A stretch of DNA of 64,000 bases. It comes from Paraburkholderia sp. BCC1884 (GTDB lineage: Bacteria; Pseudomonadota; Gammaproteobacteria; Burkholderiales; Burkholderiaceae). The DNA lies in contig NZ_CAAJGL010000156.1 of NCBI RefSeq assembly GCF_900996225.1, positions 124,001-188,000 on the forward strand, written 5' to 3'. The first letter of the stretch is position 1. Every line of letters begins with the position of its first letter. The notes under the pieces are model-generated. The model searched no databases. It was given only the letters and a program-made list of their open reading frames with translations, and had not been told where the DNA came from. Shown here piece by piece: positions 47,119 through 64,000 of the stretch. The position numbers and the translations under genes were made by a program.

Positions 47119-47159
47119 TGCGCTTTACCCCGTAGCCCACTGTTATCAGGAATGTATCA

Positions 47160-48987: not shown

Positions 48988-50118
48988 ATGACATCCACAC
49001 TCTTTTCACCCGTCGCGGTCGGCCCGGTCACATTGCCAAACCGCATTGTCGTCTCGCCGATGTGCCAATACAGCGCTGATGACGGCTGCGCCAACGACTG
49101 GCATCTGATGCATCTGATGCAGCTGGCCATTTCCAACGCAGGGCTGATCGTCCTCGAAGCCACGGCGATCGAGCGGCAAGCCCGCATCACGCACGGCTGC
49201 CTCGGCCTCTACAGCGACGCCAACGAAGCCGCCCTTGCCCGCGTGCTGGCAGCGGCGCGCCGCGTGGCGCCGCCGCAGACGCGTTGGGGCATCCAGATCA
49301 ATCACGCGGGACGCAAGGCATCGGCGCAGCGCCCCTGGGAAGGTCGCGCGGCTTTGGGCCCACTCGAAGATCCGTGGCCGACCGAAGGTCCGTCAGCGGT
49401 CGCAGCAGGCGAGCATTGGCATACGCCGAAGGAAATGACCGCCGCCGACATGACCCGCGTGCGCGACGGGTTCGTGGCGGCGACCCGCCGCGCGTTGCGC
49501 CTCGGTTTCGACGTGATCGAGATCCACGCCGCCCACGGCTATCTCATGCATCAATTCCTTTCGCCCCTGGCCAACCGGCGCACTGACCAGTACGGCGGGT
49601 CGCTCGAGAATCGCATGCGCTTTCCGCTGGAAGTGGCGGCGGCGGTTCGCGAGGTAGTGCCCTCCACGGTGTGCCTCGGTCTGCGGATCACGGGGTCGGA
49701 CTGGACGCCTGGCGGCATCGAAGTGGCCGAGACCATCGCTTTCGCGGATGCCCTGAAAGCGCGCGGTGCCGACTATGTGTGCGTCACCACCGGCGGCGTG
49801 GTCAATGCCCGTATCGCCGTGCAACCCGGCTATCAGGTTCCGTTCGCGGCCGAGGTCAAGGCAAACGTCGATCTGCACACGCGCGCAGTCGGCATGATCG
49901 CCGACGCGCAACAAGCCGAGGCGATCATCGCCTCCGGTCAGGCAGACACCGTGGCGCTCGGCCGTGCTTTTCTCGACGATCCGCGCTGGGTGTGGCACGC
50001 GGCTCAGACCCTCGGCGCCGAAGCGTCGATCACCTTTGCGCCGCAATACGAGCGCAGCAAGCCGGCTTTGTGGGCAGGCGCTCGACTCGCCCGTCCGGCG
50101 ACGGCTAACGCGTCCTGA
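48988..50118 (+). CDS. Old Yellow Enzyme (NADH:flavin oxidoreductase)
   Basis: A 376-residue FMN enzyme of the YqjM/XenA class. It carries the small-class Cys segment VSPMCQYSADDG, the His pair of HAAHGYLMHQFLSPLANRR, followed by TDQYGGSLENRMRF, and the phosphate-binding VALGRAFLDDPRW. It would reduce electron-poor C=C bonds or nitro groups with NAD(P)H in the cytoplasm. GGAGATGAAGC precedes the ATG. It is transcribed alone, 155 bases after the LysR gene. The length fits the family. Confidence 0.92.
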   Translation: MTSTLFSPVAVGPVTLPNRIVVSPMCQYSADDGCANDWHLMHLMQLAISNAGLIVLEATAIERQARITHGCLGLYSDANEAALARVLAAARRVAPPQTRWGIQINHAGRKASAQRPWEGRAALGPLEDPWPTEGPSAVAAGEHWHTPKEMTAADMTRVRDGFVAATRRALRLGFDVIEIHAAHGYLMHQFLSPLANRRTDQYGGSLENRMRFPLEVAAAVREVVPSTVCLGLRITGSDWTPGGIEVAETIAFADALKARGADYVCVTTGGVVNARIAVQPGYQVPFAAEVKANVDLHTRAVGMIADAQQAEAIIASGQADTVALGRAFLDDPRWVWHAAQTLGAEASITFAPQYERSKPALWAGARLARPATANAS

Positions 50119-50225
50119 ACCGGAACTGCTGGACAGGTACTCGTTTTTCTATCGGCGTCGAGCGTGAGTCAGCGCGATTTGCCCGCGCGCCTGCAACCAC
50201 AACAGTGAAGAAGCGCAGACGCCAG

Positions 50226-50487
50226 ATGGACACGCTGTACGCCACGAAGGTGTTCGTGCGGATTGTCGAGGCGGGGAGCCTGACGAAGGCGGTCGGCTCA
50301 TTCGACTCGACCGCGCCGAAAGTCTCCGGGCTTCTGCAGGCGCTGGAATATCGACCGGGTTGCAGACGGTTGCAGCGAACGACCCGCAAGATCTCGCTGA
50401 GCGAAGACGGGCGCCTTTAATACGAGCGCTGCATCAGCATGCTCGACGAGATCGGCGAACGGTTGCGGCTACTGAAGGCAAACATCG
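50226..50487 (+). pseudogene. Degenerate LysR N-terminal remnant
   Basis: The first 65 codons (MDTLYATKVFVRIVEAGSLT, VSGLLQALE, LQRTTRKISLSEDG) are a recognisable LysR DNA-binding domain, but several conserved positions are altered, and a TAA at 50418-50420 interrupts the typical GraYY-type segment. Past the stop the same frame continues as YERCISMLDEIGERLRLLKAN, which still matches LysR linker-helix sequence up to about 50487. The effector domain is missing altogether. This is a nonsense mutation followed by deletion, not a short regulator. Confidence 0.8.
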
Positions 50488-50600
50488 TCGTAGTCGACGG
50501 TGCGCCGCACGACGTAGTGACGGCACACGGGGGCAAGCCACGGATCGATGCACAGGATCTCCAGGTACCCATTGGCCAGAAGAGCAATTGACGTCGACAT
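50469..50600 (-). CDS. Possible 43-residue protein abutting the LysR remnant
   Basis: An ORF of 43 codons begins at an ATG preceded by GTGGAGTGGAAC, a good ribosome-binding site, and ends at 50469, inside the LysR remnant. The product starts MSTSIALLANGYLEILCIDP and contains two cysteines beside Trp/Pro and an RHYVVRR segment. Most codons end in G or C, as in neighbouring genes. No family is recognised. It may be a genuine small gene exposed by the rearrangement that destroyed the LysR gene, or chance. Confidence 0.45.
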   Translation of the reverse strand: MSTSIALLANGYLEILCIDPWLAPVCRHYVVRRTVDYDDVCLQ

Positions 50601-51016
50601 GTTCCACTCCACAAACAGTTAATGCCGGAACAACGAGACGAGAAACTTCAGCGCGTTTCTGTCTTTCTTCGAGCATGCTTCAAAGGTAGTGGCCAACCCG
50701 GCCAAGCGCCATCCTACGATCGGATATCCCGTATCTCCTCTCATATTGGGGCGCCATACCAAGGTTTAAAGATTCACGTCCGACTCAATGGGATATCGGC
50801 GCAATCTGTCGAATCGTCATCGATCAATGACGATACGCAACGAGGAAAATACCTTGTTCGCCTATGGCTCGATCAAGCTCACCCGCGCTTGCCGACGAAG
50901 CGCCGCGCCAGCCGGGCGAGACGCGGCACCGTGGTGGGGCGCAGCAGGCGTGCGCCGTAGCCCTCCATGCGCCGGTAGCCTATCGAGACTGTGTCCTGCG
51001 GCAACCCGGCGCCGAT
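50601..51016. other. Intergenic region after the diguanylate cyclase gene
   Basis: 416 bases with no convincing gene. ORFs of around 100 codons on the plus strand have shadow-like composition. The tract around 50700-50800 is less GC-rich. It lies next to the decayed LysR gene and is probably rearranged or remnant DNA; no known element could be identified. Confidence 0.5.
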
Positions 51017-52165
51017 CTACGCCAGTTCGAGCCGATTGCCGCCCAGCGACTTCGCGTTGTACAACGCCTGGTCGGCGGCCGCCAGCAGTTCAGTGAGCGT
51101 GGACGCCTGGCGTCCGGACTGGGCGAGACCGATGCTCACGGTCGCCTGGATTTCGATGCCGTCGATCCGATGCGCGACCGTACCGGCAAAGCGACGCACC
51201 ACGGCCTCGCCCACCGCCTGGGCGTGCAGATCATCATGGTCGGGCAGCAAAGCGGCAAATTCTTCTCCACCGATGCGGCAAAGAATCGCCTCCGGCCCGA
51301 CCACGCTTCGAGCGACCTCGCCAAACGACTTCAGAACCTTGTCACCCGTCTCATGACCGTATTGATCGTTGATCGACTTGAAGCGATCGAGGTCGAAGGC
51401 CAGCAGCGACACCGGCCGCGATGCCCCAACGTTGCCGAGCACGCGCGAACCCTCCTCAAAGAACCAGCGGCGATTGCCGAGACCGGTCAGATAGTCCGTT
51501 TGCGACGCCTGCAAAAGCTGGCCATGCGATTCCTCGCGGATGAGCGTCAGCAGGGTCATGGGCAACACGACCGAATATAGAACGCCCTCGTACATCGTGA
51601 GTTGGCCCGCGGCCGACAGCACGCCGTGGCCATACATGCTTGCCAGCCAAGGGAGGATGAATGTCCGGAAGGCATAAAAGAGCGCGTGGACACCCGCCAC
51701 GATCACGGCGATGTACCTTGATTTGAGCCCCTTGAAGCCGTCGCTTCGCAACAGCTCGAACGAGGTCAAGCCGGAAGCCACGGCAATCGGCAGCGCGCTC
51801 GCGTAGTTCCACAAGATGTCCTGCCGGCGCGCGCCAAACAGCACCCAGGTCAGCGCCACGACGAACAGTATGCCGATCGAGACCACCCGATGTTGCCGGC
51901 CGTTCAGCGCGGCGACGCCGTGCAGGATCAACAGATAACCGGTAACAATGACGAAGTTGCTGAGGCCGGCGCCACTCGCACCCGGCAGGTCGCGCCGGAA
52001 CGCCGCCGCAGCACAGCCGATGGCGAGCGTGGCGTAACCCGCGGCCAGAATCCTTAATTCCTTGCTGCGCCTGGGATGCGTTCGGTGCTCCCACAACGTC
52101 AAGCCGGAACTGGCCAGCAGCGTTCCGATGGCGAGGAGATAAAGGGTAATTAGATCGACGTGCAT
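51017..52165 (-). CDS. Membrane diguanylate cyclase (GGDEF)
   Basis: A 382-residue protein with about six membrane helices in residues 1-210 and a GGDEF domain from about 220 to 380. The family opening DYLTGLGNRRWF is at 224-235 and the active-site signature is GGEEF at 299-303, a functional variant. The RxxD inhibitory site normally found about five residues earlier is absent (VGPE there), so product inhibition through that site is not expected. It would make cyclic di-GMP in response to a signal sensed by the membrane part. Transcribed away from the organosulfur operon. Confidence 0.9.
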   Translation of the reverse strand: MHVDLITLYLLAIGTLLASSGLTLWEHRTHPRRSKELRILAAGYATLAIGCAAAAFRRDLPGASGAGLSNFVIVTGYLLILHGVAALNGRQHRVVSIGILFVVALTWVLFGARRQDILWNYASALPIAVASGLTSFELLRSDGFKGLKSRYIAVIVAGVHALFYAFRTFILPWLASMYGHGVLSAAGQLTMYEGVLYSVVLPMTLLTLIREESHGQLLQASQTDYLTGLGNRRWFFEEGSRVLGNVGASRPVSLLAFDLDRFKSINDQYGHETGDKVLKSFGEVARSVVGPEAILCRIGGEEFAALLPDHDDLHAQAVGEAVVRRFAGTVAHRIDGIEIQATVSIGLAQSGRQASTLTELLAAADQALYNAKSLGGNRLELA

Positions 52166-52306
52166 TGCTAACTGGAAAAATCTACACCGGTACTTCGCGG
52201 CGGCAGCCGCATTTTACGCTGAAAATTTTGACAACCCGGTCACGCGGGCTCGGCGCGTCGAAGCGTGGCCTGGCGTGGCCGGCCGCCCGGCCCCTAACAT
52301 GCGCAT

Positions 52307-52335
52307 TTGATATGTTTATCTGAATTTACTATTTA
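52307..52335 (+). promoter_or_regulatory. Candidate sigma-70-type promoter of the organosulfur operon
   Basis: TTGATA at 52307-52312 and TATTTA at 52330-52335 are separated by 17 bases in an A/T-rich tract, 112 bases before the start codon of the SsuD-like gene. Activators such as CysB-type LysR proteins could bind around it. Confidence 0.4.
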
Positions 52336-52437
52336 GTGTGCGCATAACCCGGTGATAGCCTGCATTGAATCTGCAGGCGCGGATCTCCGCTGCCCTGCTT
52401 TGCCAACCCGTCCCGCTTGCCGGGACCGAGCGCACTC

Positions 52438-52442
52438 AGGAG
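52438..52442 (+). promoter_or_regulatory. Ribosome-binding site that sets a GTG start
   Basis: AGGAG lies 5 bases before the GTG at 52448. The resulting N-terminus (VSVEFIG, read as Met-start) aligns with MSVEFIG of the paralogue at 59920, so an upstream start is unlikely. Confidence 0.7.
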
Positions 52443-52447
52443 CCAAC

Positions 52448-53524
52448 GTGAGCGTCGAATTCATCGGTATGATCCAGCAGCGCAAGGTATCTGAAACCCA
52501 TGCCCCCACCGGACCCGCAATCGACGTCGATTACGTCCGCGCCTTCGCCCAGGCTCACGAAAACGCAGGCTTCGATCGTATTCTGGTCCCTCACAGCTCG
52601 AGTAGCCCAGACGCCACGTTGACCATCGCCTATGCGGCCAGCGTCACCTCGCGCGTGAATTTCATGCTCGCGCATCGTCCCGGCTTCGTCTCGCCGACGC
52701 TGGCGGCGCGGCAGCTCGCGACCCTCGATCATTTCTCGGGCGGCCGGCTCGCGGTGCACTTTATCTCCGGCGGCAGCGACGAGGACCAGCGGCGCGACGG
52801 CGACTATCTCAGTCACGACGAGCGCTACGCCCGCACCGACGAGTATCTGCAGATCCTTCGTCGCGTCTGGACGGAGCATGAACCGTTCGACCACGAAGGA
52901 CGTTTTTACCGCTTCGAAAAAGCCTTCTCCGAGGTAAAGCCCAGGCAGTCGCCTCACGTGCCAATCTACTTTGGCGGCGCATCGGCGCCCGCCCTGGAAG
53001 TTGCAGGCAAACACGCGGACGTCTATGCGCTCTGGGGCGAATCGAAACAGCAGGTGCTGGAGCAGATCACGCGTGTGCGTGCCGAAGCCGCGAAGCATGG
53101 CAGAACCGTGCGTTTCTCGGTGTCGTTCCGCCCGATTCTCGCTGCGACAGAAAAAGCGGCGTGGGAACGCGCTGAGCACATTCTCGAGGAGACGCGCCGC
53201 CTGCGCGTCGAACAGGGCTTTGCACGAGGTGGGCCGCAACAGAGCGAGGGCGCGCGGCGTCTGCTCGCGGCGGCCGGCGACGGCGTGCGCGTCGACGATC
53301 GTCTGTGGACTGCCGTCGCCAGGGAAATCGGCGGACGTTCGAATTCGACCGCGCTGGTCGGCACGCCCGCACAGGTCGCGCAAACGCTCGCCGAATATCG
53401 CGACCTCGGTGTGACGACTTTCCTGATTCGCGGCTTCGATCCGCTCGAAGACGCCATCGACTACGGCAAAGAGCTGATTCCCGCCACGCGCGAACTGACG
53501 TCCCGCGCGCGACAAGCCGCCTGA
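52448..53524 (+). CDS. SsuD-like FMNH2-dependent monooxygenase
   Basis: A 358-residue luciferase-like TIM-barrel enzyme of the alkanesulfonate monooxygenase group. Typical segments are HRPGFVSPTLAARQLATLDH, GGSDEDQRRDGDYLSHDERYARTDEYL and the phosphate/FMN-binding VPIYFGGASAPALEVAGKHADVYALWGES. SsuD-type enzymes cleave a C-S bond with reduced FMN and O2, releasing sulfite and an aldehyde. It is the first gene of an operon with a class II aldolase-like, a thiol dioxygenase and a multi-rhodanese gene. The start is the GTG at 52448. No flavin reductase gene is in the window. Confidence 0.88.
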   Translation: MSVEFIGMIQQRKVSETHAPTGPAIDVDYVRAFAQAHENAGFDRILVPHSSSSPDATLTIAYAASVTSRVNFMLAHRPGFVSPTLAARQLATLDHFSGGRLAVHFISGGSDEDQRRDGDYLSHDERYARTDEYLQILRRVWTEHEPFDHEGRFYRFEKAFSEVKPRQSPHVPIYFGGASAPALEVAGKHADVYALWGESKQQVLEQITRVRAEAAKHGRTVRFSVSFRPILAATEKAAWERAEHILEETRRLRVEQGFARGGPQQSEGARRLLAAAGDGVRVDDRLWTAVAREIGGRSNSTALVGTPAQVAQTLAEYRDLGVTTFLIRGFDPLEDAIDYGKELIPATRELTSRARQAA

Positions 53525-53542
53525 GCGCGAGGAAACCGAACC

Positions 53543-54355
53543 ATGAGTACCGTGCTCTCACCCACTTCAGCTCTGTCGCGTCGCGATACGCCCGTGCGCA
53601 AATTCTGGTTCGACGACGACGCATCCGCACGAACCGTAGCCGGGGAACGCCGCCATCGTCAGGAGCGACTGGCGGGCGCATTCCGTCTGTTTGCGCAATA
53701 CGGCTTCGCGCAGGGCCTCGCCGGTCATATCACCGCGCGCGATCCCGAATGGACCGATCATTTCTGGGTCAATCCGCTCGGCCGGCATTTCGGACGCATG
53801 CGCGTGTCGGATCTTCTGCTCGTGAATAGCCAGGGCGAGATCGTCGTCGGCGAAGGGCCGCTCAATCAGGCGGCCTTCGCGATCCATGCAGCGATCCACG
53901 AAGCACGCCCCGATGTCGTCGCCGCGGCGCACACGCATTCGCTCTACGGGAAGGCATGGTCGACACTTGGCCGCACACTCGATCCACTGACCCAGGACTC
54001 ATGCTCCTTCTACGAGGACCACGCGCTGTTCGACGACTTCCAGGGCGTCGTGCTCGATACGACCGAAGGCGCGCGCATCGCCGCCGCCTTGCGTCAGTAC
54101 AAGGCGGTGATCCTGAAGAACCACGGCATCCTCACGGCGGGTCCGACGGTCGAGGCGGCGGCCTGGTGGTACATCGCGCTGGAAAATGCCTGTCACGCAC
54201 AACTGCTCGCCGAAGCGGCCGGCACACCGCAGCGGATTGCCCACGACGTCGCGGCACTGACGCATGCACAGGTCGGCCGGCCTGGCGGCGCGCAACATTC
54301 GTTCGAGAGCCTCTACGAAGGACTCGTCGAAGCCGAACCGGCACTGCTCGACTGA
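53543..54355 (+). CDS. Class II aldolase/adducin-family protein
   Basis: A 270-residue protein of the class II aldolase fold. Zinc-type ligands are visible in AAAHTHSLYGKAW (His-x-His) and KNHGILTAG; GEGPLNQAAFAIHAAIHEARP precedes them. Related enzymes include fuculose-phosphate aldolase, and others in the family are decarboxylases or have lost activity. It lies 18 bases after the monooxygenase, and its stop overlaps the next start (TGATG). In this setting it might act on the aldehyde or hydroxy-carbonyl product released after C-S cleavage; substrate unknown. Confidence 0.83.
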   Translation: MSTVLSPTSALSRRDTPVRKFWFDDDASARTVAGERRHRQERLAGAFRLFAQYGFAQGLAGHITARDPEWTDHFWVNPLGRHFGRMRVSDLLLVNSQGEIVVGEGPLNQAAFAIHAAIHEARPDVVAAAHTHSLYGKAWSTLGRTLDPLTQDSCSFYEDHALFDDFQGVVLDTTEGARIAAALRQYKAVILKNHGILTAGPTVEAAAWWYIALENACHAQLLAEAAGTPQRIAHDVAALTHAQVGRPGGAQHSFESLYEGLVEAEPALLD

Positions 54356-54951
54356 TGGCCATTCACACACTCCGGCACTTCGTCGGCGAGATGGCGGGCC
54401 TGGTCGATAGCGTGACCGATGAAACCGATCTGCTCGAACGCGGCGGTACGGCATTGCGCGAATTGATCGCGATCGACGACTGGCTGCCCGAAGCCTACGC
54501 GCAAGCCTCGCCGGATCGCTATCAACAGTTTCTGTTGTACGCCGACGTTCGGCAGCGCTTCTCCGTGGTCAGCTTTGTCTGGGGACCGGGCCAGCAGACG
54601 CCGGTGCACGATCACACGGTATGGGGTTTGATCGGCGTGCTGCGCGGCGCCGAACTCGCGACCTCTTTTACGCGCGACCCGGACGGCACGCTGCGCCAGA
54701 CGAGCGAAGAAGCGCGACTCGAACGCGGCGTGGTCGAAGCCGTATCGCCGACCATCGGCGATATCCATCGCGTGCGCAATGCGTATGACGATCGCGTGTC
54801 GGTCAGCATTCACGTGTACGGCGCGAACATCGGCGCGGTGCATCGCTCGACCTATCCGCCCGACGCACCGCCCAAGCCCTTTATTTCAGGTTATTCGAAC
54901 GAAACCGTCCCGAACCTCTGGGACCTCAGCAAGGAACGCCGTCTTTCATGA
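54355..54951 (+). CDS. Thiol dioxygenase (cysteine/3-mercaptopropionate dioxygenase family)
   Basis: A 198-residue cupin of the CDO family. Iron ligands H85, H87 (PVHDHTVWG) and H138 (GDIHRVRN) are present, as is the Ser-His-Tyr triad S151/H153/Y155 (SIHVY). The protein contains no cysteine at all, so the Cys-Tyr cofactor of mammalian CDO cannot form. The glutamine-containing VWGPGQQTP segment fits the bacterial 3-mercaptopropionate dioxygenase type. It would oxidise a thiol to its sulfinate. The start overlaps the aldolase stop (TGATG) and the stop overlaps the rhodanese start (ATGA). Confidence 0.88.
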   Translation: MAIHTLRHFVGEMAGLVDSVTDETDLLERGGTALRELIAIDDWLPEAYAQASPDRYQQFLLYADVRQRFSVVSFVWGPGQQTPVHDHTVWGLIGVLRGAELATSFTRDPDGTLRQTSEEARLERGVVEAVSPTIGDIHRVRNAYDDRVSVSIHVYGANIGAVHRSTYPPDAPPKPFISGYSNETVPNLWDLSKERRLS

Positions 54952-56555
54952 AGTCATATCCCGTGCGCAGTGACGAGGACGTCCGCGCAGCGTTACTCGC
55001 CAAACGTGAAATTGCCTTGCTCGACGTGCGCGAGGAAGACCCCCACGCGCAGTGTCATCCGCTGTTCGCGGCCAACTTCCCGCTGTCGAAAATCGAGCTG
55101 GAAGCCTACACACGTCTGCCGCGCCGCGACGTGCCCATCGTTCTGCTCGATGCGGGCGAAGGTTTCGCGCAACGCGCGGCCGCCCGCCTCGATGCGCTTG
55201 GTTATACGGACGTGGCGTTGCTCGCGGGCGGCTTGCAGGGTTGGATCGACGCCGGCGGCGAAGTCTTTCGGGACGTCAACGTGCCGAGCAAGGCGTTCGG
55301 TGAATTTGTCGAAACACAGCGGCACACGCCTTCGCTATCGGCGGAAACCGTCGACGCGCTGTTAAAGAACAACGACGATGTCGTCGTGCTCGACGCGCGC
55401 CGCTTCGACGAATATCAGACGATGAACATTCCGGGCAGCATCAGCGTGCCCGGCGCGGAACTCGTGCTGCGTGCGCGTACCCTCGCACCGAACCCGACGA
55501 CGCGTGTGATCGTGAACTGCGCGGGGCGCACGCGCAGCATCATTGGCGCGCAGTCGCTGGTGAATGCGGGCTTGCCCAATCCGGTCGCGGCATTGCGCAA
55601 CGGTACGATCGGCTGGACGCTTGCAGGGCAGACCTTGCAGCGCGGCAGCGATCGCACCTTCGATCCGCACGCGGCCCACGACGCGGCGAACCTCGACGCG
55701 TCCCGACATGCGGCACTCGCGCTCGCGCAACGCGCGGGCGTCGGCCGAACGTCGCTTGAAGAAGCCGCGCGCTGGGCAACCGACACGACGCGCACCACGT
55801 ATCGCTTCGACGTTCGAACTCCGGCCGAATATGAACAGGCCCACGTGCCCGGCTTCCAGGGCGCACCCGGCGGCCAGCTCGTCCAGGAAACGGAAATGTT
55901 TGCCCCGGTGCGCGGCGCGCGTGTCGTGCTCGTCGACGACGACGGCGTGCGCGCCAACATGACCGCATCGTGGCTCGCGCAGATGAACGTCGAGGTGTAT
56001 GTGGTCGATGGTGCATCGTCCGCGGATTCGACCGCGAGCGGCGCATGGCAGGCATCGAAACCCACTGCGCCGACCACGCCGTCCCTCTCGGCCGATGAAC
56101 TCGCGGCGTTGCTTGCCGACACGAAAAGCCAGACCATCGTGCTCGATTTCACGTCGAGCGCGAACCACGTCAAGGGGCATATTCCCGGCGCACGCTGGGC
56201 GTTACGCTCGCGCCTTACGAGCGACTTCGACGATCTGCGCAACCTGCCGGACGCAAAGCGCTATGTCGTCACCTGCGCGACGAATGCACTTGCGCCGTTC
56301 GCCGCACCCGAGGTCGCGGCACTGACGGGCAAGCCCGTGCATCTGCTGGAAGGCGGCACGTCCGCATGGATTCGCGCGGGCTTTGCCGTGGAGACGGGCG
56401 ACGCCGGGCTCGCCTCACCTCGCATCGACCGCTATCGACGACCCTATGAAGGCACCGACAACGCGCGCGAGGCGATGAACGCCTACCTCGAGTGGGAATA
56501 CGGCCTCGTCGCGCAACTCGAACGCGATGGCACGCACGGCTTCTTCGTGATCTGA
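54948..56555 (+). CDS. Four-domain rhodanese-like sulfurtransferase
   Basis: A 535-residue protein built of four rhodanese folds (about residues 1-115, 125-235, 260-360 and 375-490). The second and fourth keep the catalytic cysteine (C191 in VNCAGRTRS, C443 in VTCATNAL); the first and third have Asp there (LLDAG at 67-71, LVDDDG at 329-333). Active domains carry sulfane sulfur as persulfide and donate it to sulfite, cyanide or a protein. No signal peptide is seen. Coupling to the thiol dioxygenase by ATGA suggests joint processing of a sulfur compound. Tandem proteins with alternating active and inactive domains occur in Burkholderiales. Confidence 0.88.
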   Translation: MKSYPVRSDEDVRAALLAKREIALLDVREEDPHAQCHPLFAANFPLSKIELEAYTRLPRRDVPIVLLDAGEGFAQRAAARLDALGYTDVALLAGGLQGWIDAGGEVFRDVNVPSKAFGEFVETQRHTPSLSAETVDALLKNNDDVVVLDARRFDEYQTMNIPGSISVPGAELVLRARTLAPNPTTRVIVNCAGRTRSIIGAQSLVNAGLPNPVAALRNGTIGWTLAGQTLQRGSDRTFDPHAAHDAANLDASRHAALALAQRAGVGRTSLEEAARWATDTTRTTYRFDVRTPAEYEQAHVPGFQGAPGGQLVQETEMFAPVRGARVVLVDDDGVRANMTASWLAQMNVEVYVVDGASSADSTASGAWQASKPTAPTTPSLSADELAALLADTKSQTIVLDFTSSANHVKGHIPGARWALRSRLTSDFDDLRNLPDAKRYVVTCATNALAPFAAPEVAALTGKPVHLLEGGTSAWIRAGFAVETGDAGLASPRIDRYRRPYEGTDNAREAMNAYLEWEYGLVAQLERDGTHGFFVI

Positions 56556-56586
56556 GCAGCAACGGTCAACGCGCAGCACGCGCCAG

Positions 56587-57498
56587 TCATGCGGCGCGCG
56601 CGGCGCGTGCGGCCTTGAAGCTTCGCTCGATACTGTGCGATAGCACGGCAAGCGCCGACTGCATTTTTCCAGGCGCGCGCGAATGGACTAGCCACACAGT
56701 GATCTCGGGTTTGAAGTCGCTGACTGCTACTACGTCCAGTTGCGATGCGTGCGCACTGCTGTTGAGCAACGGCATGGGGACAAGTCCGAGACCCACGCCA
56801 TCCGCGACAAGGCCCAATTGCAACTCCATGCCCAATGTTTCCAGATTGAGCTTCAACGGATAGCCCTGGGCGGCGAGCGCATGCTGGAGACCGGCCCGGA
56901 AACCGCAGCCGTCCGGGTTGAGAACCCAGCCGACCGGTTGACACTCGGCGAGCGAATGCGCGCGCTTCTTCATGCTTCCCTTGCGGGCGACAACGGCCAG
57001 CTTGAGCGTGCCGAGCGATTCGCCCAACAACGTCTCGGGTAATGCACGATTCGCGGGCAACAGCACGACTGCCGCATCCAGTTGCCCGTCTTCGACCTTT
57101 TGCAGCAAAGGACTGCCCCACCCGGTCGATACACGCGGCTGCAACTCGGGGTGCGCGTTTCTCAACGCGTGCAATGCCGGCAGCATGGCGACATCCGCGA
57201 CCGTTTGCGCAACGCCGAGCCTGAGCACGCCGGCAAGCGGCGCATCGTCCGTCACGAGATGGCGAAGCGTATCGACTTCACGCACGATCGCGCGACACTG
57301 CTCGTAGACCGCGCGCCCCATTGGCGTGGTCTTCAGGGGTTTGGTGTTGCGGTCCAACAGTTCGACCCCGAGTGCTTCTTCGAAATTCTGAATACGCCGC
57401 GTCACGGCAGGCTGCGTGAGCGCCAGCGATTCGGCCGCCTGGCTCAAGGACTGACTCAGCACGACTGCAACAAACGCCTCGATTTCATCGAGTTTCAT
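56587..57498 (-). CDS. LysR-family transcriptional regulator
   Basis: A 303-residue LysR protein with helix-turn-helix residues 1-60 (SLSQAAESLALTQPAVTRRI, ELLDRNTKPLKTTPMG) and an effector domain with VADGVGLGLVPMPLL. It is convergent with the rhodanese operon and divergent from the SsuA-like gene, with 221 bases between it and that gene. It is therefore the likely regulator of the binding-protein/flavoprotein operon. It is a separate branch from the LysR pair at 36036 and 47924, and may be a sulfur-responsive (CysB/Cbl/SsuR-like) or substrate-specific regulator. Confidence 0.88.
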   Translation of the reverse strand: MKLDEIEAFVAVVLSQSLSQAAESLALTQPAVTRRIQNFEEALGVELLDRNTKPLKTTPMGRAVYEQCRAIVREVDTLRHLVTDDAPLAGVLRLGVAQTVADVAMLPALHALRNAHPELQPRVSTGWGSPLLQKVEDGQLDAAVVLLPANRALPETLLGESLGTLKLAVVARKGSMKKRAHSLAECQPVGWVLNPDGCGFRAGLQHALAAQGYPLKLNLETLGMELQLGLVADGVGLGLVPMPLLNSSAHASQLDVVAVSDFKPEITVWLVHSRAPGKMQSALAVLSHSIERSFKAARAARAA

Positions 57499-57719
57499 TG
57501 ATCTATTCCGCTTCAGAGGAAGTTATTTGACGCACGGCGGATTGCACTGCGCCGGTTCGATAGGCCCGAGCTTAGCCACTTCGGACGGCTCGCTCAAGCC
57601 TGCCACTGCATTTCATCCTCGCATATTAGCAAAGCAGAACAATGCGTTTGCGTAATAACAGACCCAACCGTATCGTGTGTTTTCGTGCCTTCACCCTCTC
57701 TGCTAAAGCTTCCCTATCC

Positions 57720-58652
57720 ATGCAACGATTACTCGTCCGCTTGCTGCTCGTGACCCTGACTGCTGCTCCCGTTCTGGCGTCGGCCGAAACGACCTTGAAG
57801 GTCGGCGATCAACAACTCCAGACTCGCGGCGTTCTTGAGGCATCCGGCCAATTGAAGGATCTGCCGTACAAGATCGAGTGGTTCAACTTTCCGGCCGCGC
57901 AGCCGCTCGGCGAAGCGCTGAATGCCGGTGCAATCGATGTCGGCGGCCTCGGCGACGCGCCGTTGATCTTCGCCTATGCCGCCGGCGCGAAAGTTCGCGC
58001 GGTCGCTGCCACGCGCTCGCAACCCGTGGATCTGGCGATCATCGTTCCGGCGAACTCGCCGATCAAGACCGCCGCGGACCTGAAGGGCAAACGCATCGCC
58101 ACGACACGGGGTTCGATCGGCCATTACCTTGCCATCGCCACGCTCGAACGCGCCAACCTCAAACTCACCGATGTATCTTTACGCTTCATGCAGCCCGCCG
58201 ATGCCAAGGCCGCTCTGGCGACCGGCAATGTCGATGCATGGTCCACGTGGGACCCGTATGTCGCGCTGGCCGAGCAGCGCGACCATGACCGCAGTATCGC
58301 CAACGGAATCGGTCTGTCTTCCGGATTGAGCTTCGAGGCCGCCACCGACGACTCGATCAAGGCGAAGCACGCGGAAATCGCCGACTTTCTGAAACGGGTT
58401 GCCGTGGCCCAGCGCTGGGCGCTGTCGCATCCCGACGAAGTCGCGGCGATCCAGTCGCGCGTGACAGGCCTGCCGCCCGACGTCCTGAAGATCGTCTATC
58501 AGCGCGCGCAAATTCACCCTGTCGCCATCGACGACAACCTGATCGCCGAGCAACAGAAGACGGCCGACCTGTACCACCGGGTCGACGTCATCAAAACCCG
58601 ACTCGACATCGCGCCGAGTTTCGACAGGCAGTTCCCGCTCGCCGCGCCCTGA
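57720..58652 (+). CDS. ABC transporter substrate-binding protein (aliphatic sulfonate type)
   Basis: A 310-residue periplasmic binding protein. The signal peptide covers residues 1-22 (MQRLLVRLLLVTLTAAPVLA, cleavage near ASA-ET). The mature start TTLKVGDQQLQTRGVLEASG, then IEWFNFPAAQPLGEALNAGAIDVGGLGDAPLIFAYAAGAKVRAVAATRS, matches SsuA-type NitT/TauT binding proteins. GNVDAWSTWDPYVALAE is also characteristic. It is followed by an SfnB-like and an SsuD-like gene but no ATPase or permease on this strand, so it probably works with the ABC components encoded convergently downstream or elsewhere. An upstream in-frame ATG at 57642 is less likely. Confidence 0.88.
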   Translation: MQRLLVRLLLVTLTAAPVLASAETTLKVGDQQLQTRGVLEASGQLKDLPYKIEWFNFPAAQPLGEALNAGAIDVGGLGDAPLIFAYAAGAKVRAVAATRSQPVDLAIIVPANSPIKTAADLKGKRIATTRGSIGHYLAIATLERANLKLTDVSLRFMQPADAKAALATGNVDAWSTWDPYVALAEQRDHDRSIANGIGLSSGLSFEAATDDSIKAKHAEIADFLKRVAVAQRWALSHPDEVAAIQSRVTGLPPDVLKIVYQRAQIHPVAIDDNLIAEQQKTADLYHRVDVIKTRLDIAPSFDRQFPLAAP

Positions 58653-58669
58653 CATAACGGAATCCACGC

Positions 58670-59923
58670 ATGACCAGCCGACACCCCGAGACCGCCCTGA
58701 TCGATATTGGGCGCGACGCCGAACGTGACGCCGACGCGCTCTCGGCGTTGTCCGATCTGGACAGCGCGAACGCCGACCGCTGGCTCGCCTCGCTGAGCGC
58801 GGCGTTCGCCGCCGGCGCCGCCGCGCTCGACGACGGAGCGCATTTCCCCCACGACAATCTGGCCCGTCTGCGCCGCGCGGGCCTGCTCTCACTCACGGTG
58901 CCGCGCTCGCTCGGCGGCCATGAGGCGACCCTTGCACAGGCCCTCAAGGTAATCCGCGCGGTAGCGCGCGGCGAACCGTCGACCGCGTTGATCCTCGTGA
59001 TGCAGTGTCTCTACCATCTTCGACTGCAAGCGAACCCCAACTGGCCAGTTGCGTTGAAGCAGCAGATCGCGCGCGACGCGGTAGAGCGCGGCGCGCTTAT
59101 CAATTCGCTGCGCGTGGAGCCGGAACTCGGTTCCCCCTCGCGTGGCGGTTTGCCTGCGACGGTCGCCACACGCACGGGCGACCACTGGATTCTGAACGGC
59201 CGCAAGCTGTATTCGACAGGCAGCCCCGGGCTCACCTGGTTCGCCGTCTGGGGTCGCACCGACGAAGCCGAGCCGCGCGTCGGCACATGGCTCGTGCATC
59301 GCGACACGCCGGGCATTCGTTTCGGCGAGCGCTGGAATCATCTCGGCATGCGCGCAACCGGTAGCCACGAAGTGATCTTCGACAACGTCCGGGTGCCGGC
59401 CGACTACGCGGTCGATCTGCAGACGCCCGGCCCGAGCAACGGCATGGACCCGGTCACGGCGCTCTGGATGAGCGTGCTGCTGCCGGCCATCTACGACGGT
59501 GTCGCGCGCGCGGCCCGCGACTGGTTCGTCCAGTGGGCCGCCGGGCGCGTGCCGTCCGGGCTGAGCGCGCCGTTATCGAGTCTCGACAGTTTTCAGCAGA
59601 CGGTGGGGCGGATCGACTCGTTGCTCCTCAATAACCGGGTATTGCTCGACGCGGGCGCGACCGGACAGATTGCAACGAACGAAGCCGCAACCGTTAAGTA
59701 CCTCGTCAGCAAACACGCCATCGAGGCCGTCGCGCTGGCATTGGAGGCGAGCAGCAATCCGGGCCTGAGCCGCAACAATCCGCTGGAGCGCCACTATCGC
59801 GACGTACTGTGCGCCCGCATTCACACCCCGCAAAACGACACCGTGCTGGGCAATCTCGGGCGTAGCGCTTTCGCCGCGCGCTGCACGCACGCCATTTCAT
59901 CGACAGAGGAGCAAACGCCATGA
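58670..59923 (+). CDS. Acyl-CoA dehydrogenase-fold flavoprotein, SfnB-like
   Basis: A 417-residue flavoprotein with the acyl-CoA dehydrogenase fold: helical N-terminal domain, central beta domain (WILNGRKLYSTGSPGLTWFAVWGR, HLGMRATGSHEVIFDNVRVP) and C-terminal helices. The group resembles SfnB/DszC proteins, which act in sulfur acquisition from sulfones or sulfonates rather than in fatty-acid oxidation. It lies between a sulfonate-type binding protein and an SsuD-like monooxygenase, whose start it overlaps (ATGA). It may supply an oxygenation or dehydrogenation step ahead of C-S cleavage. Confidence 0.82.
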   Translation: MTSRHPETALIDIGRDAERDADALSALSDLDSANADRWLASLSAAFAAGAAALDDGAHFPHDNLARLRRAGLLSLTVPRSLGGHEATLAQALKVIRAVARGEPSTALILVMQCLYHLRLQANPNWPVALKQQIARDAVERGALINSLRVEPELGSPSRGGLPATVATRTGDHWILNGRKLYSTGSPGLTWFAVWGRTDEAEPRVGTWLVHRDTPGIRFGERWNHLGMRATGSHEVIFDNVRVPADYAVDLQTPGPSNGMDPVTALWMSVLLPAIYDGVARAARDWFVQWAAGRVPSGLSAPLSSLDSFQQTVGRIDSLLLNNRVLLDAGATGQIATNEAATVKYLVSKHAIEAVALALEASSNPGLSRNNPLERHYRDVLCARIHTPQNDTVLGNLGRSAFAARCTHAISSTEEQTP

Positions 59924-61038
59924 GCGTCGAATTCATCGGTTATGTCAGTCATCAGGAATCCAGTGAGATTCATCTACCGCACGGGCCGGCCGTCAATCCA
60001 CCTTATATCGCGGCCGTCGCGCAGGCGCATGAGTATGGCGGCTTCGACCGCGTGCTGATCGCTCATTCGAGCGCCTCACCGGATGGATTCCAGATTGCGT
60101 CGTTCGTCGCGCAACAGACCAGGCGCCTGGGCATCCTGTTGGCGCATCGGCCCGGCTTCGTCGCGCCGACCCTCGCCGCGCGCCAGCTCGCGACACTCGA
60201 TCATTTCAGCTCGGGACGCTCCGCCGTTCACATCATCTCGGGCGGCGACGATACGGAACAACAGCGCGACGGCGATTTTCTCGCGCACGACGAACGATAT
60301 CGACGCACCGACGAGTATCTCGATGTCGTCAAGCGTTCATGGACCAGCGAGACGCCGTTCGATCACGAGGGTGAGTTCTACCACGTGAAGGGCCATAAAT
60401 CGCAGATCCGTCCGCTGCAGAAACCGCATCTGCCCGTGTACTTCGGCGGCTCGTCGGAGGCGGCGATCGAGGTTGCCGGCAAGCATGCCGACGTCTTCGC
60501 GCTATGGGGCGAATCGCTCGCCGCAGCCGAAGAGACCATTGCCAGGGTTCGTGCGTCGGCCGCACGTCACGGACGCGCCGACGCTATCCGCTTCAGTCTG
60601 TCGCTGCGCCCGATCATCGCGCCCACGGAAGATGCAGCGTGGGCCCGCGCCGAATCGATTCTGCAACGCGCGAAGGATGTCGTGTCCGCGTCGCCCAATT
60701 TCACACGTCGGCCGAAAGACCCGAAGAATGTCGGCGCGCAACGTCTGCTTGCCGAGGCGGATAAGGGCAGTATCGTCGATAAGCGATTGTGGACCGGCAT
60801 CACGGCCTTGACGCGCGCCGCCGGCAATTCGACTTCGCTCGTCGGCACGCCTCAGCAAGTCACGGACGCGCTGCTCGAGTATCACAAGCTCGGTATCACG
60901 ACGTTCCTGATTCGCGGCTTCGATCCGCTCGAAGATGCGCTGGCGTACGGGCGAGATCTGTTGCCGCTCGTGCGTGCCGCCGTCGGCCACCGGCAAGCCG
61001 ACGGGCACGCGCGCGAAAAGCAGGTCGCCCTCGCCTGA
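59920..61038 (+). CDS. SsuD-like FMNH2-dependent monooxygenase
   Basis: A 372-residue luciferase-like enzyme closely related to the one at 52448: MSVEFIGYVSHQESSE, HRPGFVAPTLAARQLATLDHF, GGDDTEQQRDGDFLAHDERYRRTDEYL, VYFGGSSEAAIEVAGKHADVFALWGES. It is expected to release sulfite from sulfonates using FMNH2 and O2. Its start overlaps the SfnB-like stop by ATGA. The two copies are in separate operons and probably have different substrates. A strong terminator hairpin follows. Confidence 0.88.
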   Translation: MSVEFIGYVSHQESSEIHLPHGPAVNPPYIAAVAQAHEYGGFDRVLIAHSSASPDGFQIASFVAQQTRRLGILLAHRPGFVAPTLAARQLATLDHFSSGRSAVHIISGGDDTEQQRDGDFLAHDERYRRTDEYLDVVKRSWTSETPFDHEGEFYHVKGHKSQIRPLQKPHLPVYFGGSSEAAIEVAGKHADVFALWGESLAAAEETIARVRASAARHGRADAIRFSLSLRPIIAPTEDAAWARAESILQRAKDVVSASPNFTRRPKDPKNVGAQRLLAEADKGSIVDKRLWTGITALTRAAGNSTSLVGTPQQVTDALLEYHKLGITTFLIRGFDPLEDALAYGRDLLPLVRAAVGHRQADGHAREKQVALA

Positions 61039-61060
61039 TACACAGCAGAACCACCGACAA

Positions 61061-61171: not shown

Positions 61172-62206
61172 TCAGGCCAGTACTTCCGAAAAGACGCGCG
61201 TCGCAAACCGGTCTGAGTTCGTGCCGGCATTCATCACGCCGACCGATTTCAGGTCGTCCGCATACAACGCAATTTCCTTCCTGAATGCCTCGCCCACCGG
61301 ATGGTGATGATCGGTATGGCTCTTCAGCATCGCGGTCAACTGAGCGACATCCGCGCCGGGCGCGTAGGCCGAGAAGATCGACGCGGCGTCGGCGGGACGA
61401 TTAGCGGTCCATTCGGTCGCTTCCAGCAAGGCTTGCGTCAGAGCCTGTGCCGTCGCCCGGTCCTTGCGAATCAGCGACCCGCGCACGCCCAGCACGCAGC
61501 ACACGCGGTTCTGATACTCGCCGCACAGATTGTTCGAAACTTCCTGCAGATGGTCCGACTCACGTAGCGTCCAGATGGTCGGATCGCCGTCCGCGATCGC
61601 CTGCACTTCGCCCTTCTTCAATGCCTCGCCTAGCAGCGTCGCCGGGTACTGCCGCCAATGCACCTCGTTGTCCGGGTCGATGCCGAGCTTCTTCAGCGTG
61701 ATCGCGAAGAAATTCTTCGCGGGACTCGCCATGTCGCTCACGCCCACCGTGCGTCCCTTCAGGCCTTGCAGATCGACGATGCCCGAGGTTTTCGTCGCGA
61801 GCAAGCGCATGCAGCCGCCATGAATGCCCGCCGTCAACTTGACGTCGAAGCCCTGCTCCAGCGGCTTGATCCAACGCAGCGCCATGCCGACACCGGCGTC
61901 CGATTTGCCCGTTGCAATGGCTTCCAGTAATTGATCGGTCGACCCGGCGAAGTTGATCAGTTCGACCTGCAGCCCGTGTTTCTCGAAGATGCCCTGCTTG
62001 AGCGCGACCGGCACGGGTGCCGTGCAGATTGCGCCAGCGTTCCATGAGAGCTTGACAGGCTTCAGGTTGCTCTGGGCAGCGGCCCGCAGGCTCGGCAACA
62101 CGAAAGACGCGCCGCCCAATGTCGCCGCGCCCGCGGTCCATGCGGTCTTGCGCAGCCACGCGCGCCGCGCGAGGTCCGGCGCCGCCGCGTTGTGGTTGGA
62201 ATCCAT
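61172..62206 (-). CDS. ABC transporter substrate-binding protein with Tat signal (sulfonate/nitrate type)
   Basis: A 344-residue binding protein. The N-terminus RRAWLRKTAWTAGAATLGGASFVLPSLRAAA is a twin-arginine-type signal. Mature motifs include LKQGIFEKHGLQVELINFAGSTDQLLEAIATGKSDAGVGMALRWIKP and ADGDPTIW, of the NMT1/SsuA-like group. GGAAG precedes the ATG at 62206. It is the distal gene of an operon with permease and ATPase genes, giving a complete importer for sulfonates, taurine or a related anion. The cysteine-containing NNLCGEYQNRVCCVLG segment is distinctive. Confidence 0.85.
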   Translation of the reverse strand: MDSNHNAAAPDLARRAWLRKTAWTAGAATLGGASFVLPSLRAAAQSNLKPVKLSWNAGAICTAPVPVALKQGIFEKHGLQVELINFAGSTDQLLEAIATGKSDAGVGMALRWIKPLEQGFDVKLTAGIHGGCMRLLATKTSGIVDLQGLKGRTVGVSDMASPAKNFFAITLKKLGIDPDNEVHWRQYPATLLGEALKKGEVQAIADGDPTIWTLRESDHLQEVSNNLCGEYQNRVCCVLGVRGSLIRKDRATAQALTQALLEATEWTANRPADAASIFSAYAPGADVAQLTAMLKSHTDHHHPVGEAFRKEIALYADDLKSVGVMNAGTNSDRFATRVFSEVLA

Positions 62207-62261
62207 ATCGTTGCTTCCAGTTCGTTGTGTGATGGTTGGTTGGTCGGTCGACACGGCGCGC

Positions 62262-63098
62262 TCAGACATCCATGCCGAGTTGCCCGAGCACTTCGCGACG
62301 CAGCGCGACCAGCTTCGGATCATCGCGATGACGCGGATACGGCGCATCGTTACGCACCTCCGCGACGATGCGCGCGGGACGCCCGCTAAACACGATCACG
62401 CGGTTGGCGAGATACAGCGCCTCCTCGACATCGTGCGTAACGAGCAACACGGAATAGCGTGCCGCCTGCCAGAGACGCACGAGCTCGCCCTGCATACGAA
62501 TGCGCGTGAGCGAATCGAGTTTGCCGAACGGTTCGTCGAGCACCAGCAATTGCGGATCGTTGACGAGCGCTCGCGCCAGCGCCGCACGCTGCGCCATGCC
62601 ACCCGACAGTTGATGCGGAAAGGCGTCGGCAAACTTCGATAGTCCGACGAGTTCGAGCGCCGCGTCGACGCGCTCGCCGACTTTCGATTCTTTGTTTCCA
62701 GGCCTGATCCGACTGGTGCGTTGCGCCTCGGGACCGAGGCCCACGTTGTCGCGCACAGTGCGCCAGGGAAACAGCGTCGGGTCCTGAAAGACCACGACGC
62801 GCGAAGGATCGGGACCGTCGATCGGCAGGCCGTTGGCCTGCACACTTCCTTGCGTCGGCTTGTCGAGACCCGCGACGAGTCGCAGCAACGTGGATTTACC
62901 GCATCCGCTGGGCCCGAGCAGAGCGACGAACTCGCCGGGTTCGACCGAAAGGCTGATGTCCTCCAGCACCGGCAGTCCTTCACCGCGGATCGCAAAGCGG
63001 TGACTGACATGACGCACGTCGATGCGCGCGCCGTCGCGGGATCGGTGCAGATCTGGCGTAACGCGGGACGAATGATCGAGTGGAGCGGTGATTACCAT
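62262..63098 (-). CDS. ABC transporter ATPase (SsuB/TauB type)
   Basis: A 278-residue ATPase with Walker A GPSGCGKS (62-69), signature LSGGM (164-168), Walker B LLVLDEP (184-190) and the switch His in LLVTHDVEEAL. QDPTLFPWRTVRDNV is characteristic of the nitrate/sulfonate/taurine subfamily. The start ATG at 63098 overlaps the permease stop by 7 bases, so they are coupled. It powers uptake by the adjacent permease and binding protein. Confidence 0.9.
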   Translation of the reverse strand: MVITAPLDHSSRVTPDLHRSRDGARIDVRHVSHRFAIRGEGLPVLEDISLSVEPGEFVALLGPSGCGKSTLLRLVAGLDKPTQGSVQANGLPIDGPDPSRVVVFQDPTLFPWRTVRDNVGLGPEAQRTSRIRPGNKESKVGERVDAALELVGLSKFADAFPHQLSGGMAQRAALARALVNDPQLLVLDEPFGKLDSLTRIRMQGELVRLWQAARYSVLLVTHDVEEALYLANRVIVFSGRPARIVAEVRNDAPYPRHRDDPKLVALRREVLGQLGMDV

Positions 63099-64000
63099 TT
63101 GAGCAATCCTTTTTGCCAGGCCAGCAGCCGGTCGCGGAACAGGAAGAGCAGCGAGATCAGCCCCGAGCACATCAGCGCCATCACGAGCAGCGCGGCGTAC
63201 ATGTTCGAATAGGCGGCCCAACCTTGCGCCCATTGCAGATACCAGCCGAGCCCGGCCTTGACGCCCATCATCTCCGCGACGAACAGCACGGAAAACGAAG
63301 CGCCGAGCCCCATGAACAGTCCCACGAAGACCGACGGCAACGCGGCGGGAATCGCCACCTTCAGAATCAGGAACGAGGGGCGCGCGCCGAGCGTGCGCGC
63401 GACATCGTAGTACGCGGAATTGACGCTGGCCACGCCGGACCACGTCAGTACTGCAACGGGAAACGCACTCGCCAGCGCGATCAGGAATACGCTCGCGCTG
63501 AAGCTCGACGGGAAAAAGAAGAACGCGAGAGGCAACCAGGCGGTCGCGGGCAGCGGACCGATGAAACGCAGCACAGGATGAAGCCAGTAGCCGACCGCCC
63601 GCGACCAGCCAATACTCACCCCGACGCTAAAACCGGTGAGCGCACCGAGCGCATAGCCGTAGACGAGCAAGCCAAGCGAATGAACCACGCTTGTCCATAG
63701 TCGCGGAAAATCGTCGAAGTACACGGCAATCAACGCCTGCGGCGGCGCGAAAAATGGCCGGGGCAACCACTCGAGTTTCGCGGTGACGATTTCCCATCCG
63801 CTGATACCGAGTGCGAGCGCAAGCAGCCAGGGCGCGGCCGCCAGCCATCGATTCGTGCGCGAGTCGTCGGTCTGGGTCGACGCCCGTTGGCGCCAGCCGC
63901 CAAGTACGATCAGCGCACAGAATGCCGCGAGCGCGAGTTTCAGAATCAGTAGCTCACGCGTGTACGGCCAATCGTCGAGATCCGGCCACCACTGCGTGAT
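63092..64000 (-). CDS. ABC transporter permease (SsuC/TauC type), 5' end outside the window
   Basis: 302 residues are visible and the frame remains open to the right edge, so the start lies beyond it. The last 220 residues hold the permease core with about six helices, including the conserved EMMGVKAGLGWYLQWAQ coupling region and the start of the core, PRPFFAPPQAL. An additional N-terminal part, with one helix near LALAAFCALIVLGGW and another near APWLLALALGISGWEI, precedes it. A TTG within the frame at 63766 could be mistaken for the start but would remove a helix. It forms the importer with the next two genes. Confidence 0.85.
   Translation of the reverse strand: MTQWWPDLDDWPYTRELLILKLALAAFCALIVLGGWRQRASTQTDDSRTNRWLAAAPWLLALALGISGWEIVTAKLEWLPRPFFAPPQALIAVYFDDFPRLWTSVVHSLGLLVYGYALGALTGFSVGVSIGWSRAVGYWLHPVLRFIGPLPATAWLPLAFFFFPSSFSASVFLIALASAFPVAVLTWSGVASVNSAYYDVARTLGARPSFLILKVAIPAALPSVFVGLFMGLGASFSVLFVAEMMGVKAGLGWYLQWAQGWAAYSNMYAALLVMALMCSGLISLLFLFRDRLLAWQKGLLKW

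Follow-up and report, generated by a model that had tools for sequence, protein, structure and literature searches.

A conserved four-gene operon of Paraburkholderia joins a 3-mercaptopropionate dioxygenase-type enzyme and a four-rhodanese protein to a luciferase-like monooxygenase and a probable NovR-like decarboxylase

Introduction

What purpose is served by an operon in which a luciferase-like monooxygenase, a protein of the class II aldolase fold, a thiol dioxygenase and a four-domain rhodanese protein follow one another with hardly a base between them? The question is raised by Paraburkholderia sp. BCC1884 (7.54 Mb in 156 contigs), where these genes occupy positions 52448-56555 of a 64,000-nucleotide stretch of contig NZ_CAAJGL010000156.1 (positions 124,001 to 188,000), hereafter the window, whose numbering is used throughout. 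We believe that the operon and its neighbours form an organosulfur-scavenging unit that serves under sulfur limitation and releases sulfite without coenzyme A (CoA), a proposal to which we give an even chance of being right. The four genes, here called operon 1, are as follows.

52448..53524, + strand: LLM1, luciferase-like monooxygenase, group C fold (PF00296; GTG start)
53543..54355, + strand: ALD, class II aldolase fold, NovR-like (PF00596; NF004855 above cut-off)
54355..54951, + strand: MDO, 3-mercaptopropionate dioxygenase-type thiol dioxygenase (PF05995; PDB matches; alignment)
54948..56555, + strand: TST, four-domain rhodanese protein (four PF00581 stretches; homologue of PDB 1yt8)

A sequence-only reading of the window had described four co-directional genes with gaps of at most 18 bases and overlaps of the TGATG and ATGA kind, and the coordinates confirm it: LLM1 and ALD are 18 bases apart, ALD and MDO share one base (TGATG) and MDO and TST share four (ATGA). 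The Pfam families Bac_luciferase, Aldolase_II and CDO_I and four Rhodanese stretches all exceed their gathering scores. The longest mechanical start of the LLM1 frame lies at 52352; homologues begin at the position of 52448, and the latter start is therefore supported.

Conservation of the operon

The order of the four genes is a stable feature of the genus. We searched 97 Paraburkholderia genomes, scoring only each genome's best first-look candidates, and found an MDO match (E <= 1e-25) in 69; matches of at least 60% identity, some of them partial, were taken as orthologous loci, of which there are 64 in 63 genomes. At 56 of the 64 (55 genomes) the order LLM, ALD, MDO, TST is kept on a single strand, which supports the earlier suggestion of one operon resembling sulfur metabolism. 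TST is the only one of the three neighbours present at two further loci, an extra binding-protein gene separates ALD from MDO at some, and none of the three accompanies MDO at the 11 places where its identity falls below 60%. ALD orthologues, for their part, were never found away from LLM (0 of 58 places). The best named MDO matches are those of Paraburkholderia metrosideri (81% identical, top rank) and P. panacisoli (82%, next).

Chance clustering of the four genes is ruled out by these 56 loci together with paralogue controls. A single unlinked gene would fall within 6 kb of MDO with a chance of about 0.0015 per genome, and none of 45 ALD paralogues or 49 other TST places lies that close to any MDO; within 15 kb there are still no ALD paralogues and two other TST places, both at MDOs below 60% identity.

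Identity of the encoded proteins

MDO matches the PDB chains 6xb9, 3uss/4tlf, 4qma and 4wvz over its full length with 247-252 bits, compared with 29 bits for the best cysteine dioxygenase type 1 and 32 bits for mercaptosuccinate dioxygenase. Three His ligands, a Gln at the substrate-Arg position and the lack of a cross-link Cys mark the 3-mercaptopropionate dioxygenases. In an alignment of 23 rows H85, H87, H138 and Y155 are invariant and Q58 is at least 90% conserved, and the HDHTVWGLIGVL segment offers no Cys for a Cys-Tyr link. By sequence, then, MDO belongs to the 3-mercaptopropionate dioxygenase group, and the call of a thiol dioxygenase is borne out by the full-length match to solved enzymes and the residues kept. 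A cysteine dioxygenase is ruled out by the 29-bit score.

TST aligns over its whole length (residues 5-535, 716 bits) with PDB 1yt8, which we take to be PA2603, and on this match it is a PA2603-type four-domain sulfurtransferase. Active-loop Cys residues are present in domain 2 (C191) and domain 4 (C443), invariant in all seven aligned proteins, and the loops of domains 1 and 3 have none; domain 1 does have a Cys (PHAQCHP), but away from its loop and without conservation. The genome encodes another four-rhodanese protein, of 71% identity, at G000:C79:268795-270378 (L138:10796-12379) without MDO, beside an MsnO8-type LLM and an OsmC/YcaO-domain protein.

ALD is a different case. Glu73 and Tyr113 are catalytic residues of fuculose-1-phosphate aldolase FucA of Escherichia coli. 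ALD has the fold of FucA and the three metal-binding His in common with it (H130, H132 and H194), but both catalytic residues are Gln in ALD (Gln109 and Gln151), and none of 10 aligned family members has an acid in the E73 column. The best solved matches are NovR (9ryg, 234 bits) and 4xxf (named a fuculose-1-phosphate aldolase, 229 bits), followed by TqaM (173 bits), with E. coli FucA at about 46 bits; the decarboxylases NovR and TqaM (PDB 9ryg and 9m09) are thus the nearest solved relatives besides 4xxf, and both likewise have no acid at the aldolase Glu position. Enzymes of the NovR/CloR type use O2 to decarboxylate oxo or hydroxy acids; NovR and TqaM belong to antibiotic and fungal metabolism. 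A plain class II aldolase is ruled out by the two replacements, and with them the earlier label of a carbon-carbon lyase gives way; ALD is probably a metal-dependent NovR-like decarboxylase. Of the 120 homologues listed, most are named class II aldolase or similar and 2 are named Decarboxylase NovR, so that a likely non-aldolase function concerns a family mostly annotated as aldolase.

The term SsuD-like, also from the sequence-only reading, does not hold for LLM1 as worded. The nearest relatives of LLM1 are indeed MsuD and SsuD, but its score against the SsuD model TIGR03565 is 255.3 bits where the cut-off is 518.2, and a protein encoded elsewhere in the same genome passes that cut-off with 622.7 bits. 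According to the available text of a study of MsuD, the sulfonate-binding motif comprises W195, R225, R296 and an RGGA loop, and the W195A, R225A and R296A variants gave no measurable sulfite (PMC8234197). The corresponding region of SsuD, numbered without Met, includes R226, H228 and R297. LLM1 keeps the Trp, has Ser226 and Ile294 in place of the two Arg, and reads IGGR for RGGA; LLM1 shares with six aligned cluster relatives, among them LLM2 of the neighbouring operon, Ser for the first Arg and Ile or Thr for the second, the retained Trp and an Arg in place of SsuD H228, and the eighth aligned row, a distant Nostoc LLM (27% identity), shows further differences at the motif. Cut-off and motif residues together rule out a plain SsuD. 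Among the cluster genes scanned no flavin reductase was seen, the SsuE-type family not having been searched; PF01613 is found at 8 places on other contigs of the genome.

Two contexts of the dioxygenase and the fate of the sulfinate

MDO occurs in two genomic contexts, one with TST and one with CoA-type enzymes or TTT receptors. In a quick tree of 107 rows, rooted at the midpoint, 42 of the original 149 rows, every one of them from a named locus, having first been removed at random, one side of the root holds 44 TST-adjacent rows, 3 unlabelled rows and 1 CoA/TTT row, and the other side 32 CoA/TTT rows, 23 unlabelled rows and 4 TST rows (three from Azospirillum, and L193 on a long branch). TST adjacency requires 5 changes on this tree, compared with a mean of 35.2 for shuffled labels and with no shuffle of 500 as low, although the sampling of close relatives favours such clustering. 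In Diaphorobacter, MDO lies with a 3-sulfinopropanoyl-CoA desulfinase (over the model's cut-off), a CaiB-type transferase and TTT receptors, and the MDOs of Bradyrhizobium and Polaromonas likewise have CoA-type neighbours. On a Bradyrhizobium guangxiense plasmid (L147) MDO stands amid genes that bear the names CoA transferase, enoyl-CoA hydratase, MmgE/PrpD and phosphonopyruvate decarboxylase, possibly a sulfopyruvate-type route.

We searched for the desulfinase with model NF042439 at E <= 1e-100 among the best 17 first-look candidates of each genome. In the genome of the window, where the best 17 of 35 candidates were scored, there was no match. Five of the 97 genus genomes have a protein over the cut-off (G619, G630, G634, G687 and G703), and all five carry an MDO below 60% identity, on the same contig in four. 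Among the 63 genomes with the TST-type MDO the desulfinase was not found in 61, and the exceptions, G630 and G687, each possess a second, distant MDO. Since the desulfinase was not found in nearly all genomes with this MDO, that of the window included, the sulfinate that it makes probably leaves by a route other than the known CoA desulfination.

These results bear directly on the possibility of a catabolic operon for 3-mercaptopropionate or dithiodipropionate, of the type described as mdo-acd-CoA-transferase clusters in Advenella mimigardefordensis DPN7 (PMC5373536) and Variovorax paradoxus TBEA6 (PMC6370202). In the accessible accounts of both, MDO makes 3-sulfinopropionate from 3-mercaptopropionate, and CoA activation and an acyl-CoA-dehydrogenase-like desulfinase complete the route. 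The dioxygenase family is the same, and Diaphorobacter has just such a cluster. The operon described here, in contrast, has TST and sulfonate-type importers beside MDO, not TTT receptors, its MDO sits in the other part of the tree, and no desulfinase was found among the candidates scored in the genome; tree position and the desulfinase result disfavour the catabolic operon, which we regard as very improbable.

Modules beyond the genus

Outside Paraburkholderia MDO is patchy, with matches in 46 of 250 genomes sampled from the order (E <= 1e-25) and in 10 of 369 sampled from the class (E <= 1e-15). Among the best 80 MDO loci of named genomes, which are not a random sample and in which incomplete loci count as misses, TST directly follows MDO at 76, a binding-protein (SBP) match is present at 67, LLM (at least 50% identity) at 55, a LysR match (at least 50% identity) at 51, ACD, the acyl-CoA-dehydrogenase-fold protein described below, at 46 and ALD (at least 55% identity) at 25. 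All four genes keep their order and strand at 14, namely 14 of the 15 Paraburkholderia loci (one titled Burkholderia sp.).

Elsewhere the parts recur in other arrangements. ALD-LLM is divergent from ACD-MDO-TST in Variovorax and on a Comamonadaceae plasmid, and a region of Azospirillum sp. B510 holds MDO-TST, importers, LLM, ALD, ACD and a malonic semialdehyde reductase (over cut-off), with a 2-hydroxyacid dehydrogenase gene between LLM and ALD, a set that would fit desulfonation of 3-sulfopropionate. MDO-TST, in some cases together with LLM, is also carried by plasmids of Sphingobium, Acinetobacter, Sodalis and Klebsiella; the stretches shown, whose gene tables are incomplete, contain no ALD. 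Thus, operon 1 joins two modules, LLM-ALD and MDO-TST, that also occur separately. The families that recur in the flanks are mostly the parts already named and importers, along with frames antisense to these.

Several further observations concern the modules. Genome G670 (G670:C12:98153-100067) is the sole sampled genus genome with the LLM-ALD pair and no MDO or TST match, and offers a natural test of that module alone. Methionine-type ABC importer genes in the clusters of Nostoc (L132) and Acinetobacter (L154) hint that the substrate resembles methionine. A different class II aldolase subfamily (L080:7925-8719; PRK07044, 369.5 bits, cut-off 207) is encoded between an LLM and the LysR gene next to MDO-TST, and ALD-type matches of 35-45% identity, similar to that of L080, are present at 26 of 46 Pseudomonas loci.

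A second operon, regulation and expression

Beyond a LysR gene that follows operon 1 lies a second co-directional set (SBP1, ACD and LLM2; operon 2), and then SBP2 and an ABC ATPase on the opposite strand.

52299..52361, + strand: conserved upstream block, ATGC ... TATTTA ... GCAT ... TGnTA (alignment of 13 upstream regions)
56587..57498, - strand: LysR-family regulator, lying between the two operons (Pfam)
57621..57654, + strand: second conserved block, GCATATT...AGCAGAACAATGCGTTTG (11 aligned upstream regions; runs across the mechanical start of SBP1)
57642..58652, + strand: SBP1, aliphatic-sulfonate-type binding protein, SsuA family (TIGR01728 above cut-off; PDB 2x26)
58670..59923, + strand: ACD, acyl-CoA-dehydrogenase fold (Pfam; residue alignment)
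59920..61038, + strand: LLM2, a further luciferase-like monooxygenase (57% identity with LLM1; begins within the 3' end of ACD)
61172..62347, - strand: SBP2, NMT1-like binding protein of an ABC importer (family models)
62262..63443, - strand: ABC transporter ATPase adjoining SBP2 (family scan)

SBP1 scores 218.4 bits against TIGR01728, the SsuA family (cut-off 163.5). The part of its frame between the mechanical start and 57720 (57642-57720) overlaps the conserved, apparently non-coding block, and because a signal-peptide-like stretch lies near 57720 the true start is probably there, ahead of the signal peptide. In acyl-CoA dehydrogenases the Glu of the IYEGT motif is catalytic. ACD has ARIHTPQN aligned with TQIYEGTN of 3pfd, that is HTPQ for YEGT, with Thr at the place of the dehydrogenase Glu; its best PDB chains are 5z8t/5gj7 and then 3m9v/4kcf, presumably an N-oxygenase of the acyl-CoA-dehydrogenase fold, and true dehydrogenases score only slightly lower. 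We regard ACD as probably a group D reduced-flavin monooxygenase. An ACD orthologue lies within 15 kb of MDO at 46 of the 64 genus loci, on the same strand in every case, and 46 of the 49 ACD orthologue places in the genus sample are near MDO.

The first block, of about 60 bases and ending about 90 bases 5' of LLM1, is conserved in 13 sequences (the window and 12 Paraburkholderia or Caballeronia loci) whose surroundings are mostly not, and it is a probable, putative LysR/CysB-type promoter of operon 1. The second, conserved in 11 aligned upstream regions, is in the same way a probable promoter or operator of operon 2. Matches in a consensus promoter and terminator scan were at chance level.

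Published tables for P. phymatum suggest when such genes are used. In bacteroids Bphy_5235 (named alkanesulfonate monooxygenase) and Bphy_5232 (named rhodanese domain protein) are strongly induced, with log2 fold changes of 6.2 and 5.6, and uptake genes for sulfonate, taurine and sulfate appear in the same tables (PMC5748707); in nodules of an rpoN mutant the values are -3.5 and -4.0 (PMC5979394). Two locus tags separate Bphy_5235 from Bphy_5232, as two genes separate LLM and TST in the window. We infer that the nodule induction would be a sulfur-starvation response.

Under such control, the enzymes might simply be a parallel set of independent scavengers, each with its own sulfur source. The separation of the modules across taxa fits this view, as does the induction, together with the probable P. 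phymatum orthologues, of a second alkanesulfonate monooxygenase and taurine uptake at other loci, again going by the published tables. Overlapping frames and a fixed order at 56 of 64 loci, however, exceed the needs of common regulation, and both modules meet again, rearranged, in Azospirillum and Variovorax; we consider a parallel set unlikely, if worth keeping in mind.

A proposed route to sulfite

How, then, might one unit scavenge organosulfur? Substrates would enter through the neighbouring sulfonate- and NMT1-type importers, and MDO, by homology to the solved enzymes, would oxidise 3-mercaptopropionate or a close mercapto acid to the sulfinate. Because the CoA-dependent desulfinase was not found, we assign the release of sulfite to the reduced-flavin oxygenases: ACD, of the fold class of MsuC, would oxidise the sulfinate to the sulfonate, and an LLM would then break the C-S bond to give sulfite. 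ALD, as a NovR-like decarboxylase, may act on an oxo or hydroxy acid that is either the product or the substrate of LLM1, and TST may handle sulfane sulfur released along the way. A single linear route from one substrate to sulfite and a carbon skeleton is possible, though its two halves occur apart in other bacteria.

The enzymes of the first module could instead act before MDO. ALD and LLM1, with ACD, would then make the thiol that MDO uses: a NovR-like oxidative decarboxylation of a 2-oxo acid such as 4-methylthio- or 4-mercapto-2-oxobutyrate would yield a 3-thiopropionate, ACD and an LLM would oxidise and remove the S-alkyl group, and MDO would follow. That NovR is the nearest solved relative of ALD, also lacking the acid at the aldolase Glu, suits this order of events, as do the constant company of ALD and LLM in the genus (0 of 58 places apart), the absence of the sulfonate motif from LLM1, the methionine-type ABC genes of the Nostoc and Acinetobacter clusters and the 2-hydroxyacid dehydrogenase between LLM and ALD in Azospirillum; moreover, PMC12947264 states that no enzyme of 3-mercaptopropionate biosynthesis has been reported. 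Yet the substrate is conjectural, the fate of the sulfinate is left over, and LLM-ALD is found without MDO (on the Nostoc plasmid) and MDO without ALD. We think this rather doubtful. Doubtful to a greater degree is a CoA-free route in which both ideas are combined, with 3-mercaptopropionate as an intermediate: ALD would make it (or the S-alkylated compound) from a 2-oxo acid derived from methionine or homocysteine, and the group D and group C pair would replace the CoA desulfinase.

Several observations weigh against the scavenging unit with CoA-free sulfite release. The lack of R226, H228, R297 and the RGGA loop, as aligned, speaks against LLM1 as the sulfonate-cleaving step. Within the genus, ALD is not there at 6 of the 64 loci, where LLM and TST stand beside MDO, 18 of the 64 have no ACD orthologue within 15 kb (contig ends may cause some of these misses), and G670 carries LLM-ALD without MDO. 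The refutation proposed with the sequence-only reading, that the genes would rarely occur together, fails within the genus, where all four stand together at 56 of 64 loci, but the full order was seen at none of the 65 named loci outside Paraburkholderia among the best 80, though parts recur. A further 60 unnamed MDO stretches came from matches in the order and the class and from low-identity matches in the genus; 5 of them have TST next to MDO, 1 has an LLM of at least 50% identity and none has ALD. A Nostoc plasmid has LLM-ALD with binding proteins and another ACD/LLM pair, and no MDO in the stretch shown; the 8 kb shown of Klebsiella and Sodalis plasmids contain MDO-TST and nothing annotated as LLM or ALD, with an incomplete gene table. 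Deletion of the tst homologue in Pseudomonas protegens did not significantly change the level of 3-mercaptopropionate (PMC12947264). The orthology of Bphy_5232 and Bphy_5235 is probable, by names and locus-tag order only. Finally, a divergent desulfinase may have escaped a search of the best 17 candidates at E <= 1e-100.

Comparison with known systems

One half of the operon has a described counterpart. The 3mdo-tst pair of Pseudomonas protegens CHA0 (c14110-c14100; PA2602-PA2603 in PAO1), which is said to look like one transcription unit, consists of homologues of MDO and TST; the main text of that paper never mentions an aldolase or a monooxygenase (PMC12947264), whereas the operon described here has LLM and ALD ahead of the pair. 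According to the same paper, no thiol is more abundant than 3-mercaptopropionate in fresh and marine waters, and no enzyme other than its dioxygenase has been reported to dissimilate it (PMC12947264). The sfnG-msuC-msuD pathway for dimethylsulfone and methanesulfonate likewise pairs group D with group C luciferase-like enzymes in sulfur scavenging (PMC8234197, PMC13352529), MsuC oxidising methanesulfinate, a sulfinate-to-sulfonate step, according to the accessible account (PMC8234197), and the pathway serves as our model for the passage from sulfinate through sulfonate to sulfite. Unlike that pathway, LLM1 and LLM2 are without the sulfonate-binding Arg pair, and a thiol dioxygenase belongs to the set.

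In the open-licence literature, to the extent of its available text, we found no description of the coupling of MDO-TST to an LLM and a NovR-like protein, of the two MDO contexts or of the missing desulfinase; the main text of a sulfur-starvation study of Pseudomonas aeruginosa PAO1 contained none of six terms sought in it. Within that literature the earlier suggestion that the gene order was unreported holds for the four-gene combination, and it falls for its dioxygenase and four-rhodanese half, which is published for Pseudomonas (PMC12947264). What is known, then, is the MDO-TST pair; what we did not find described is its coupling to LLM and ALD, its contexts and the missing desulfinase. With two contexts, one of them without a known desulfination step found, it becomes testable what happens to 3-sulfinopropionate and where 3-mercaptopropionate comes from.

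Other features of the window

An Rfam scan of 47000-64000 gave no matches. At 40320-44370 the window encodes cytochrome c, 2Fe-2S and molybdopterin-binding proteins, a separate dehydrogenase-like set.

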